Positions 42,094-48,287 of a stretch of 50,437 nucleotides of DNA are shown here, piece after piece; within the stretch, counting starts at the first letter, position 1; each line of letters opens with the position of its first letter. Under the pieces are notes generated by a model. That model did no database searches. It saw only the letters and a list, made by a program, of their open reading frames with translations, and was not told the origin of the DNA. Position numbers and translations under genes: made by a program. This stretch comes from Planifilum fulgidum (GTDB lineage Bacteria > Bacillota > Bacilli > Thermoactinomycetales > DSM-44946), in assembly GCF_900113175.1 (NCBI RefSeq), contig NZ_FOOK01000026.1:1-50437 (forward strand). Direction: 5' to 3'.

Positions 42094-42927
42094 TTGGCGA
42101 CGGGACAGCAGTGGCGCCTGCTTCGCACCGGAAAAAGGAGCGGCGCCGAAAACATGGCCATCGATGAGGCGATTCTCATTGCCGGAGGGGAGGGCAAGGC
42201 TCCGCCGACGATCCGCTTTTACGGATGGGATCCCCCCACCCTCTCCATCGGATATTTTCAGCGGGCAGCCCGCGAAGTGGATTTTGCGCGGCTGAAGGAC
42301 CGGGGATTGGGATTTGTGCGGCGGCCCACGGGCGGCCGGGCCGTGCTGCATGATCAGGAACTGACCTACAGCGTCATCGTGGCGGAGGATGTTCCGGGGA
42401 TGCCCTCCTCGGTGATTCAATCCTACCGGGTGATCAGCACGGGGCTTTTGGAGGGGTTCCGCCTGCTGGGACTGGCGGCGGAGATGGTTTCCCTCGAGGG
42501 AAAGGCGGCGCAAAGCGGCTCCCCCGATTCCGCCGCCTGTTTCGATTCCCCTTCCTGGTACGAGTTGGTCGTGGAGGGGAGGAAGGTGGCCGGAAGCGCC
42601 CAGACCCGGCAGCGGGGAATGATCTTGCAGCACGGGTCCATTCTGCTTGATCTGGATGTGGATCTGCTGTTCGATGTGCTGAGGTTCCCTTCGGAACGGG
42701 TCAAGGAGCGGATGAAGCGGACCTTTTTGGACAAGGCGGCGGCGATCAACCAGCTTCGCCGGTCGCCGGTGACCCCGGAGGAGGCGGAGGAGGCCTTCGC
42801 CGAAGGGTTTGCCCGCGGATTGGGCGTCCGACTCGTCGAAGGAGAGCTGACGCCCTATGAACAAAAGTTGGCGGAGGAACTGGCGGAAAACCGCTATGCC
42901 TCCGATGAATGGAACATGAGGAGATAA
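42094..42927 (+). CDS. lipM: Octanoyltransferase LipM
   Basis: LipM moves octanoate from acyl carrier protein to GcvH, the first step of lipoate assembly in Bacillales. The 277-aa protein has RFYGWDPPTLSIGYFQ, GFVRRPTGGRAVLHDQELTY, acyl-accepting Cys149 in ACFDSPSWYELV, and Lys164 in GRKVAGSAQTRQ. It is very close to B. subtilis YqhM along its whole length. The start is TTG 42094, matching family length; the GGGAG before it is slightly distant. In B. subtilis it also lies close to the gcv genes, whose H protein it serves. Confidence 0.95.
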   Translation: MATGQQWRLLRTGKRSGAENMAIDEAILIAGGEGKAPPTIRFYGWDPPTLSIGYFQRAAREVDFARLKDRGLGFVRRPTGGRAVLHDQELTYSVIVAEDVPGMPSSVIQSYRVISTGLLEGFRLLGLAAEMVSLEGKAAQSGSPDSAACFDSPSWYELVVEGRKVAGSAQTRQRGMILQHGSILLDLDVDLLFDVLRFPSERVKERMKRTFLDKAAAINQLRRSPVTPEEAEEAFAEGFARGLGVRLVEGELTPYEQKLAEELAENRYASDEWNMRR

Positions 42928-44836: not shown

Positions 44837-45118
44837 TTGAGCCGAACCTTCCTTTCGAAATGGCGTAAGCATCTTAAACAGGTCAAGAACTTCTACGAGG
44901 AAATGTATTTCGTCCCCTACCGCAGGACGATGAAACGGGAGATCCGGGACGAAGAAGATGTCTTCAAGCTGTTGGCGTTTTCCGAAATGCTGGGGATTCC
45001 CAATCCGGTCTCTTACTACACCCTGGAGCTGATCCCCTTCATGCTGGAGGATTTCCATGATTGGCACCGGCGCATGGGAATGGAGAAATCGCCCCTGGAT
45101 GGTTTTCGATGCTGCTAG
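44837..45118 (+). CDS. Cory-CC-star-type small protein ending in Cys-Cys
   Basis: A 93-aa helical, charged protein that ends GFRCC followed by the stop codon. The invariant terminal Cys pair is the hallmark of the family named cory-CC-star in current annotation (recalled, not looked up). Motifs NFYEEMYFVPYRRTMKREI and ILGIPNP-like MLGIPNPVSYYTLELIPFMLEDFH are visible. The start is TTG 44837 after GGGAGG (44822-44827). It lies between cstA and an ArsA-like ATPase; the terminal Cys could bind a metal or be modified. Function unknown. Confidence 0.8.
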   Translation: MSRTFLSKWRKHLKQVKNFYEEMYFVPYRRTMKREIRDEEDVFKLLAFSEMLGIPNPVSYYTLELIPFMLEDFHDWHRRMGMEKSPLDGFRCC

Positions 45119-45153
45119 GAACCGGTTCGGAAAAACAGAAGGAGTCGTCGGAT

Positions 45154-46119
45154 GTGAAGGAACACACGGGTGAACGGATCGCCTTTTTCGGCGGAAAGGG
45201 CGGAGTGGGAAAAACGACCTGCTCCGCCGCCTATGCCTTGGCGCTGGCGGAAAAGGGACGGCGGACGCTCCTGGTCTCCACGGATCCCGCGCATTCCCTG
45301 GGCGATTTGCTGAATGTGCGGACCGGGGATGAGGCCTGTCAGGTACGCGATTTCCTCTATGTGCGGGAAATCGATCCGGAGCGGGCTTCCCGCCGTTATC
45401 TGGAGGAAGCGAAAGAAAATATGCGGGGTCTGGCGGCGCCCAGATTGTGGAACGAGGTGGAGCGGCAGATGGATTTTGCCGCCGCTTCCCCGGGGGCGGA
45501 TGAGGCGGCGCTCTTCGATGAGATGGTGTCGGTGATCCTGGAGGCGGAAGGGGCTTACGACCGGATTGTGTTTGACACCGCTCCGACCGGTCACACCCTG
45601 CGACTGCTCTCTTTGCCGGAACTGATGGGGGTTTGGATCGAGGGGATGCTCGCCCGCCGCAGAAAAACCCGCGAGTTGCGTAAGATGCTCCACAACGCCT
45701 CCGGACTGGCCGATGACGATCAACCGGAGGACCGGGTGTACGCATTGCTCCAGAGGCGGAAAAACCGGTTTGCCTTCGCCCGGAAGCGGCTTCTCGATCC
45801 GTCTTTCACTTCCTTTTATTTCGTGGTCAATCCCGAAAGGCTGTCCATCCTGGAAGCTTTCAAGGCCCGGAATCTGTTGAACAAATATGGGATTCCCGTC
45901 GGAGGGGTCGTGGTGAACCGGGTGATTCCCGAACAGGCGGACGGCGCTTTTTTGGCCCAACGCCGGGAACAGGAAAAGGTGCATTTGCAGGAGGTGGAGA
46001 AACGCTTCGGCGACCTTCCCCTTCTGCATATCCCTCTGGAACCCAAAGACATTCAAGGGATGGAAGGGATCCGCGCGGTTTCCGAACGCTTTCGACGGGA
46101 AAATTTCGGGGGCATCTGA
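45154..46119 (+). CDS. ArsA-related P-loop ATPase
   Basis: A 321-aa ATPase of the ArsA/Get3 branch of the SIMIBI class. The deviant Walker A is FFGGKGGVGKTTCS (11-24), switch I STDPAHSLGDLL, and switch II VFDTAPTGHTLRLLSLPELM. The CxxC metal site of Get3 and the Cys triad of arsenite pump ArsA are absent, so neither tail-anchored insertion nor arsenite efflux should be assumed. GTG 45154 has AAGGAG nine bases before; an in-frame ATG at 45109 overlaps the preceding gene but lacks a binding site. It is probably a partner of the CC-ending protein and CstA. Confidence 0.88.
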   Translation: MKEHTGERIAFFGGKGGVGKTTCSAAYALALAEKGRRTLLVSTDPAHSLGDLLNVRTGDEACQVRDFLYVREIDPERASRRYLEEAKENMRGLAAPRLWNEVERQMDFAAASPGADEAALFDEMVSVILEAEGAYDRIVFDTAPTGHTLRLLSLPELMGVWIEGMLARRRKTRELRKMLHNASGLADDDQPEDRVYALLQRRKNRFAFARKRLLDPSFTSFYFVVNPERLSILEAFKARNLLNKYGIPVGGVVVNRVIPEQADGAFLAQRREQEKVHLQEVEKRFGDLPLLHIPLEPKDIQGMEGIRAVSERFRRENFGGI

Positions 46120-46191: not shown

Positions 46192-46542
46192 TTACCGTTT
46201 CCGATCGATGACGATGTGAACGGGGTTTCTCGGGGCGGAGGCGGCAATTCTCCTGCGGGCTTCCCGCCGGAGGGCATCGTACCGGTCGGGACGCACCTCC
46301 GGCTTCGGCGTGATTTTCACGATCAGCCGGCGACCGGTGTAGTACACCTCCGCCTCCTTTACCCCCGGCGTCTGGAGGGCCGCCCGTTTGATATAGTCCT
46401 TCTGATAGGAGACGTAACTGTAGGAGCGGCTGTCGTTGGACAGGCCTTCCCGATGTTCCGGCCGTTCGGTCAGCTGGCAGGCGGCGTTCATCAACAGAAA
46501 CAAAAGGGTGACGGCGGCGATCACTCCTCTGCGAAGGGACAA
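46192..46542 (-). CDS. YhcN/YlaJ-like sporulation lipoprotein
   Basis: A 116-aa lipoprotein. The signal peptide is followed by lipobox MNAAC (Cys22). The mature domain has YIKRAALQTPGVKEAEVYYTGRRLIVKITPKP, the pattern of YhcN/YlaJ proteins, which are made in the forespore or found in spore coats. The start is TTG 46542 with GGGAGGTG six bases upstream. It is convergent with the ATPase gene. Confidence 0.8.
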   Translation of the reverse strand: MSLRRGVIAAVTLLFLLMNAACQLTERPEHREGLSNDSRSYSYVSYQKDYIKRAALQTPGVKEAEVYYTGRRLIVKITPKPEVRPDRYDALRREARRRIAASAPRNPVHIVIDRKR

Positions 46543-46915
46543 GTCTTCACCTCCCGTCCGTTTGCCGCATCCTTCGCGGTGCGAAGGGGCGCGCGGGGAA
46601 TTCCGTTTTTTGGATCCGAGTCAAATCTTTTTATATTTTGACGCGATCGGCGCCTTTCTATGCGGCAAATCCGGACAGAAGCCGGGTTCCAGCCCGGAGC
46701 GGAATTGCCAATCGGCCGCATCATTGTGTAGCATATCGATATTGATGAATCAAACCGAGAACGTCGCTTAATGCCCTGTATGTCATCCTGAAATTATGCT
46801 ACATTGATAGAAGAATATTTTTTCGCATTAGGGCGACAAAGGAGAGGACTTCTTTTCGTTTTTCGTTGCCGCTTCTCCGCCGGAGCAAATCTGTTTGTGG
46901 GAAGGAAGTGCATCG
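46543..46915. other. Intergenic region between divergent genes
   Basis: About 370 bp with low GC in its right half. Promoters for the lipoprotein gene and the pseudokinase gene must be here, but no hexamer pair stands out. No gene is seen. Confidence 0.5.
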
Positions 46916-48223
46916 ATGCAGTCGGAAAACCGAGCAGCGGGGCGGTATTATGAACGATTTCAGGTCCTGGACACCATCCATTTTTTTAACAGAAAATTAA
47001 TTCTCGCCAAGGAGCCGAACGGCAGGCAGGTTTTTCTCCAGGAGATCGAAATGAATCACTTCGTTCCCCCGGGAATCCGGGAGGTGCTGCGAAATTTCGA
47101 TCATCCCCATGTGGCCCCCATCCAGGACGTCATCGAGGAACATCGGCGGATCATTTTGGTTCATCCGCCCATGATCGGGGAACCCCTCTCCATGCTTGTG
47201 GATCCGGACCATCCGATGCCACCCATCCAAGCGCTTCGCATTTTTCGCAGGTTGTTGAGGACGATGGTCGATTTGTACAATCTTCCCCTTCCGATGACCA
47301 CCACGTTGGATCCGAGAAACGTGATCATGGACGAAAACAACCCGTATGTCCTGTTCCTCAATTTCAAGAAGTTGTCACCGCCTCGATTTCATGAAAAGTG
47401 GAGGGAACTGCTTTATTTTTTGCTGACCGGAAAGGAACCGGAAGGGGATGTGCGCCGGTCGATCGAGGATCATCAGGACATCCCTCCGGAATTGAGGCGG
47501 CTGATCGCCGCCTGCTTCGATCCCGCCAACACCATTCACGATGTATTGGCGCTCGCGGAATCCACCCGCATTCAGCTGCCGGAGAAGAAAAACCCCTTGA
47601 AGAAGTGGCTGTATCCGGTGGCGGCGGCGGTTCTGGTGGTGTTCGGCGCCCTCCTGGGGATTCAGCTCACATCGAACACGGCGATGTCCGAACCGTTGAA
47701 CCTGGAAGCCGAACCCCGCCGGCTGGCCACCGTTTCTCAGCTCCGGCTGGATGATGCAAGCCAGGTGTATTCCCTCGGCCTGCCGGAGGGGGAACCGGTC
47801 CGGATCCGGGCGGAGCTGACCCGGGTGGATAATCGTTCCTTCACCCTCGCCTTGGTGTCGGAAGAGCAGCGGCGTGGATATGGAATATACATAGACGAGC
47901 AGGGGAAGGTTCTGTTTTTGGAAAAAGCGGATGGAGAGGACCCCCTCCTAAGCGGTCAGGATCGGACAACCCCTCCCGTCGAGCCGGGCAAACGATATGT
48001 TCTTGAAATGGTGTACATTCCGGACGAACCCCTCTACGTCACCGTCATGGAGAACAGCGGGAGAAACAAGAGGGGAGCCGTCGGTCCGATTCCGGCCGTC
48101 AGCCCTTCCCGGGTGCAGTTTCAAGGGGGAGAGGGAATCGTGCTGCACCAGTTGAAGGCGATCCGGTTGGACGATCTGAGCGAAACGGACAGCCAGGGCG
48201 GCACCGCGAGCAGTCTTTCCTGA
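46916..48223 (+). CDS. Membrane-anchored protein with degenerate protein-kinase domain
   Basis: A 435-aa protein. Residues 10-215 follow the Hanks-kinase layout (HPHVAPIQDVIEEHRRIILV = alphaC/beta4-5, LDPRNVIMDENN = catalytic loop, VLFLNF = DFG strand) but lack all three catalytic residues. The beta3 Lys position reads VFLQEIE, HRD is TTT before LDPRN, and DFG is LNF. A single membrane helix is at 231-250. The exported C-terminal ~185 residues are beta-rich (SQLRLDDASQVYSLGL...RYVLEMVYIPDEPLYV), like laminin-G-type or sugar-binding folds. ATG 46916 follows AAGGAAG. It is likely a pseudokinase scaffold or sensor rather than an enzyme. Confidence 0.78.
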   Translation: MQSENRAAGRYYERFQVLDTIHFFNRKLILAKEPNGRQVFLQEIEMNHFVPPGIREVLRNFDHPHVAPIQDVIEEHRRIILVHPPMIGEPLSMLVDPDHPMPPIQALRIFRRLLRTMVDLYNLPLPMTTTLDPRNVIMDENNPYVLFLNFKKLSPPRFHEKWRELLYFLLTGKEPEGDVRRSIEDHQDIPPELRRLIAACFDPANTIHDVLALAESTRIQLPEKKNPLKKWLYPVAAAVLVVFGALLGIQLTSNTAMSEPLNLEAEPRRLATVSQLRLDDASQVYSLGLPEGEPVRIRAELTRVDNRSFTLALVSEEQRRGYGIYIDEQGKVLFLEKADGEDPLLSGQDRTTPPVEPGKRYVLEMVYIPDEPLYVTVMENSGRNKRGAVGPIPAVSPSRVQFQGGEGIVLHQLKAIRLDDLSETDSQGGTASSLS

Positions 48224-48248: not shown

Positions 48249-48287
48249 CATCTCCCGGGCCGACTTTGCTCGGGAGATGCAGCTTTT
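48249..48287 (+). terminator. Terminator after the pseudokinase gene
   Basis: CATCTCCCG (48249-48257) pairs with CGGGAGATG (48271-48279), followed by CAGCTTTTT. A 9-bp stem with a short U-run. Confidence 0.75.

Follow-up and report, generated by a model that had tools for sequence, protein, structure and literature searches.

Within the window, a stretch of 50,437 nucleotides from Planifilum fulgidum, a gene was identified whose product is, with somewhat better than even confidence, a receptor-type membrane pseudokinase belonging to a conserved family restricted to one order (Thermoactinomycetales), for which a receptor-scaffold function is proposed. Few bacterial pseudokinases are known, most of them uncharacterised, and the best-known membrane representatives are components of secretion or cell-wall machines. 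EssB/YukC, MviN, and TraF are established examples of membrane pseudokinases that carry an outer domain; the new elements here are the lectin fold of the ectodomain and a set of pseudokinases extending across the order, with four family matches versus two Pkinase matches in the window's own genome.

A kinase fold with degenerate catalytic motifs

The gene and the features of its first domain are as follows.

46916..48223, + strand: pseudokinase coding sequence, an open frame of 435 amino acids with an ATG start
46943..47572, + strand: kinase-fold (pseudokinase) domain, residues 10-219, placed by AlphaFold2 model, structural alignment, and PDB profile
47039..47041, + strand: Gln42 at the beta3 Lys site (Q in 44/46 family rows, H in 2/46, K in 0/46)
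47297..47320, + strand: degenerate catalytic loop TTTLDPRN, residues 128-135, at the HRDxKPxN site, placed by the 46-row alignment with its register from the PDB profile
47360..47362, + strand: Asn149 at the DFG Asp site (Asp in 2/46)
47390..47431, + strand: alphaF motif HEKWRELLYFLLTG, residues 159-172, about 12 residues past the DFG site

When searched alone, the window protein has a sole Pfam match, to Pkinase, at an E-value of 0.021, which is under the cut-off, and its best PDB match is BRSK2 at E 5.9e-4, with chance-like ubiquitin rows appearing from E 0.0028. Pkinase is matched at E <= 1 by 24 of 44 aligned relatives, the best at 1.7e-4, and the family profile of the first domain matches 105 PDB sequences at E <= 0.01, led by StkP at E 5.4e-7. 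The best 60 of these 105 are all named kinases or cell-division-control kinase homologues, except for one 'Rhodanese family protein' and two entries named 'Twitchin'.

The AlphaFold2 model containing the kinase domain has a mean pLDDT of 79.1, and VIA-align superimposes this domain on Rad53 (Z 16.2, rmsd 4.1, 206 aligned), Staphylococcus aureus PknB (Z 15.6), and the MviN pseudokinase (3otv_D; Z 14.8, rmsd 4.0, 210 aligned); since these Z-scores lie within 2 of each other, no kinase subfamily is favoured. Neither EssB/YukC nor TraF is among the 50 structural matches listed for the domain, by which similarity to them is neither shown nor excluded. A Foldseek search with the whole two-domain model placed AMPK chains on top, with alignments running across both domains at rmsd values of mostly 15-24 Å, and was disregarded. 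The N-terminal half of the protein is thus modelled as a bilobal kinase fold, and structure prediction and fold comparison, in which the absence of such a fold would have told against it, sustain the kinase-like overall layout claimed in the original prediction.

Residue conservation was assessed in a 46-row family alignment, which comprises the family matches at E < 1e-30 after removal of contained duplicates and of a truncated frame (L030 2-988) and includes two fragments (L040 and L049); weaker family matches of about 25% identity, at 17 loci, were analysed separately. In the PDB profile alignments, residues 128-130 fall on HRD, with LDPRN aligned over LKPEN such that D132 occupies the position of its Lys and N135 that of its Asn. 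This register equates the beta3 Lys with Gln42, the HRD Asp with Thr130, and the DFG Asp with Asn149, so that the losses read earlier from VFLQEIE, TTT, and LNF, respectively, are confirmed. They are also fixed across orthologues, none of which restores the Lys or the HRD Asp (each in 0/46); the DFG Asp persists in 2/46, and both keepers (L043 and L044) are likewise devoid of the other two residues. The DFG site and the alphaF Trp (Trp162) are separated by 12 residues in 36 of the 46 rows (range 10-20), compared with about 41 in the genome's intact kinase, a difference which indicates that the activation segment is missing. As judged from these alignments, the domain is without the residues required of an active Ser/Thr kinase (Q42, T130, and N149 standing in their places) and without an activation segment. 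In WNK kinases the catalytic Lys has moved to beta2. A comparable replacement was considered and rejected here: site 32 holds K or R in 42/46 rows, but the model places it where beta2 ends, and it was judged, without a coordinate check, to be outside the pocket.

The near-invariance of Gln42 (44/46), Asp132 (45/46), and Asn135 (44/46) would allow for some remaining role of the pocket. A repurposed active site, in which they would bind nucleotide or metal for another chemistry or for ligand sensing, has precedent in SelO and SidJ, altered kinase folds with new chemistry according to part of a review (PMC12599244). That reading is nevertheless doubtful, as the ATP-anchoring Lys occurs in none of the 46 rows, a glycine-rich loop and the activation segment are missing, and the DFG Asp is kept in just two. 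Moreover, the soluble relatives of the family, which have no transmembrane segment and show the Gln/LDPRN-like pattern in most rows, mostly keep the Asn but not always the Asp (LHPANI or LHPSNI in 3/15), and YukC, whose losses are comparable, shows no ATP binding in vitro according to excerpts of PMC9600267.

The membrane helix, the outer domain, and selection

Beyond the degenerate domain, two further features complete the protein.

47606..47665, + strand: single transmembrane helix, residues about 231-250 (Kyte-Doolittle 2.21 at 231-249)
47699..48178, + strand: exported concanavalin-A-like beta-sandwich, residues 262-421, placed by AlphaFold2, structural alignment, and Foldseek

Four K/R residues precede the helix and none follows it, an N-in/C-out bias that recurs as an excess of K/R before the helix in all 44 members of sufficient length for scoring, the remaining two of the 46 rows being too short; 40 of these 44 reach a mean hydropathy of 1.6. 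The AlphaFold2 model of the outer domain is all-beta (pLDDT 86.9, pTM 0.82), in keeping with the prediction of one helix leading to an exported beta-rich domain. Its fold matches are headed by thrombospondin-1 (Z 13.8, rmsd 3.1, 156 aligned), a GH43 xylosidase (13.7), and galectin-4 (13.4); the 50 best matches listed span Z 12.7-13.8 and include galectins, thrombospondin, and GH43/GH32 modules, and the best Foldseek E-value is 4.2e-6. On these models, the outer domain is a jelly-roll beta-sandwich of the concanavalin-A/galectin/LamG-like kind. No sugar-binding signature is evident in its well-conserved columns, which look structural (F, G, Y), and 'lectin' is therefore used here as a statement on fold alone.

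Most of the 46 rows are approximately 570-630 residues long and carry a second C-terminal beta-rich stretch, related at most faintly to the first outer domain in the long members (hhalign probability 14%, 33 columns). Seven rows, including the window protein, which has no second outer beta domain, are shorter than 460 residues. In the family tree, the window pair and the short rows L036, L042, and L049 stand apart, and the short first frame of L011 and the broken L040 lie elsewhere; read from this tree, whose label test ignores ungrouped rows, the second domain would have been lost repeatedly.

The orthologue of the window protein in the sister species (G002) is 85% identical, and comparison of the two genes gives a dN/dS of 0.176 over the whole gene, 0.11 over residues 1-226, and 0.28 over residues 262-424. 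The dead kinase domain is thus under purifying selection and is the most constrained part of the protein, and the lower value inside than outside matches the expectation for a binding surface under selection. These values bear directly on whether the protein is a decaying, functionless kinase remnant, a view in line with the loss of every catalytic motif, with the missing second outer domain of the window copy, and with a stop codon in one tandem copy of a relative (G009:C3). Decay is very improbable given the constraint on the gene and on the dead domain in particular, the near-invariance of specific residues, and the intact frame across the 30 strong-match genomes, which span genera, except for that G009 copy.

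Comparison with known kinase-fold membrane proteins

PASTA Ser/Thr kinases such as PrkC, PknB, and StkP carry the kinase fold inside, one transmembrane helix, and a sensor-like domain outside. The window protein shares this layout, and StkP is its family's best PDB profile match; it differs in having no catalytic residues, activation segment, or PASTA match, and in the lectin-type fold of its outer domain. An 'inverted PASTA kinase' was accordingly rejected, for the topology is identical and only catalysis is lost. The original prediction that the protein inverts the usual PASTA-kinase idea does not stand, given that nothing is inverted in this dead enzyme and that EssB/YukC, MviN, and TraF precede it. 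That prediction is therefore borne out in part, its outside sensor and inside scaffold being proposed roles.

EssB/YukC proteins consist of a pseudokinase, one transmembrane segment, and an outer domain, and do not bind ATP in vitro, according to excerpts of PMC9600267 and PMC12599244. The window protein resembles them in its cytoplasmic pseudokinase with degenerate motifs and attenuated activation loop, its single transmembrane helix, and its outer domain, as well as in a length near that of YukC. The first-domain profile aligns with nine YukC-type proteins over 195 columns at an hhalign E-value of 9.7e-6 (probability 82.6%), compared with 0.33 for an unrelated control profile, and the kinase domains of the two groups are likely to be remotely related. 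It is nonetheless quite unlikely that the window protein is a divergent EssB/YukC member and hence part of a secretion machine: the outer domain of YukC is alpha-helical, as described in part of PMC9600267, whereas that of the window protein is the concanavalin-like sandwich. The EssB/YukC family PF10140 has no match in the window protein at E <= 1, and the list of 25 families compiled for 44 members does not contain it, in a search whose HMMER filters can drop weak matches; it was found neither in the window's own genome nor among the analysed neighbours, which show no secretion genes, PF10140 being the secretion family searched. YukC-type genes also occur separately from the family in 12 of the 61 searched genomes. 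Membership was rejected on the all-beta outer domain and the absent PF10140 match.

Mycobacterial MviN (Rv3910), of the ActPs3 family, has wholly lost its catalytic motifs, has a deletion in the activation loop, and is membrane-linked with a carbohydrate-binding domain (PMC12599244, in part). These losses, the deletion, and the membrane link are shared by the window protein, whose fold match to MviN is not specific, as its Z of 14.8 ties with those of active kinases. The likeness is one of fold; the window protein comes from a different phylum and has no MurJ/MviN flippase part, and its loop reads LDPRN versus Lsidhpsr for MviN (Table 1 of PMC12599244). TraF of plasmid pIP501 is a conjugation membrane protein with an N-terminal pseudokinase fold and is a structural homologue of YukC, according to part of PMC13037476; the window protein is likened to it by description, both being membrane proteins with an N-terminal pseudokinase fold. 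In the excerpts of the review (PMC12599244), the families ActPs1-3, GLW, CP1, DYD, and DLHK, together with the unclassified EssB, SidJ, and SelO, come from other groups, with no mention of Thermoactinomy. Literature searches found no description of the present family, nor of pseudokinases in Thermoactinomyces.

Distribution, genomic context, and proposed role

Among the order's genomes, 42 were searched: 39 are matched by the domain profile at E <= 1e-8, and 30 of the 42 have a match at E < 1e-50, leaving 12 without a strong family member. The 36 genomes that match at E <= 1e-12 in a sample of 398 from the class are all of the same order; named carriers include Kroppenstedtia, Paludifilum, Melghirimyces, Laceyella, and Thermoactinomyces. 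The four profile matches in the window's own genome are the window gene, a paralogue on C13 with a 610-residue frame, a soluble relative on C31, and, on C10, a transmembrane relative with another outer domain. The two Pkinase matches comprise one clearly intact kinase with VAIK, HRD, and DFG and one on contig C12, where the scanned fragment gave no family match.

Soluble pseudokinases with a long charged tail occur across the order, represented in the window's genome by L133 (8172-9779, - strand, G000:C31) and elsewhere by L118-L129, L131, and L132. Spo0M-type genes lie near them in 13 of 15 loci, adjoining in 10 and one gene off in 3, and one representative neighbour was verified as PF07070 at E 5.4e-58; the two loci without such a neighbour are those of the window's genome and the sister species. 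In a third type (L134, 5547-6845, + strand, G000:C10; L130, 4957-6177, + strand, G002), the degenerate domain has the loop YVPEN and is followed by one transmembrane segment and a C-terminal domain that differs from that of the window protein and has no Pfam match.

The window gene is accompanied by three candidate expression signals.

46705..46734, + strand: possible promoter TTGCCA-18-TAGCAT, from a promoter-pattern scan
46899..46908, + strand: likely ribosome-binding site GGGAAGGAAG, upstream of the ATG and identical in G002
48249..48279, + strand: terminator-like hairpin of 12 pairs, 8 of them GC, 3' of the gene, the longest stem found

GGGAAGGAAG lies downstream of the TTG at 46895 and so favours the ATG at 46916 as the start. 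Promoter-like sites in the region number 2 versus 1.1 expected, which is not significant alone. Of 23 family genes, 13 have the hexamer TAGCAT (at 46729-46734 in the window) in the 250 nt upstream, compared with a mean of 1.6 and a maximum of 7 in 200 shuffles, and nine of the 13 have it roughly between -70 and -95; it is likely a promoter element common to family genes. Sporulation-type promoter patterns gave scattered matches only. Terminator-like sites are not above chance in number (4 found, 3.6 expected), and the position of the hairpin suggests a transcript of one gene, such that the window copy appears to be transcribed singly.

Of the 30 family loci, nine carry two family genes, and a tandem copy in one relative (L040, G009:C3:14184-15461) is broken by TGA. 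The commonest neighbours are lplA (18 loci), dat (17), and nrdJ (14), counted with genes taken by longest open reading frame, so that some are hidden, such as the window's lplA, which was missed (Pfam: 42094-42927). This neighbourhood, which also includes yprAB, is of a housekeeping kind and points to no pathway. The divergent gene adjoining the window's pseudokinase gene (46192-46542, - strand) encodes a YhcN/YlaJ-like sporulation lipoprotein at E 4.8e-4, under the Pfam cut-off, and at 44837-46119 (+ strand) a gene for a cory-CC-star protein (NF041419) overlaps an ArsA/Get3-type ATPase gene.

In the favoured reading as a receptor-type pseudokinase, the family probably relays an outside cue by partner binding and not by phosphorylation. 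The outer beta-sandwich would bind a cell-envelope glycan or a surface partner, and the single helix, oriented as its charge bias predicts, would join it to the dead kinase domain in the cytoplasm. That inner domain would phosphorylate nothing and act instead as a docking surface, comparable to the hubs that the pseudokinases of MviN and YukC provide. The docked partner would perhaps be the cell's true Ser/Thr kinase or a client of that kinase, and the intact kinase encoded in the same genome is a possible partner. A broader proposal, conceivable yet improbable, is that the order has evolved 'kinase-free' regulators with a kinase fold, comprising the lectin-type receptors, the soluble type usually found beside the arrestin-like spo0M, and the third, transmembrane type, which together might form a relay from envelope to cytoplasm, perhaps using a repurposed pocket whose hallmarks would be the near-invariant Gln42, Asp132, and Asn135. 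With its fixed losses, strongly conserved dead domain, and lectin-type outer domain, the family would provide a clean system for asking which function a kinase fold serves once catalysis is gone, and whether a dead receptor can pass an outside cue inward.
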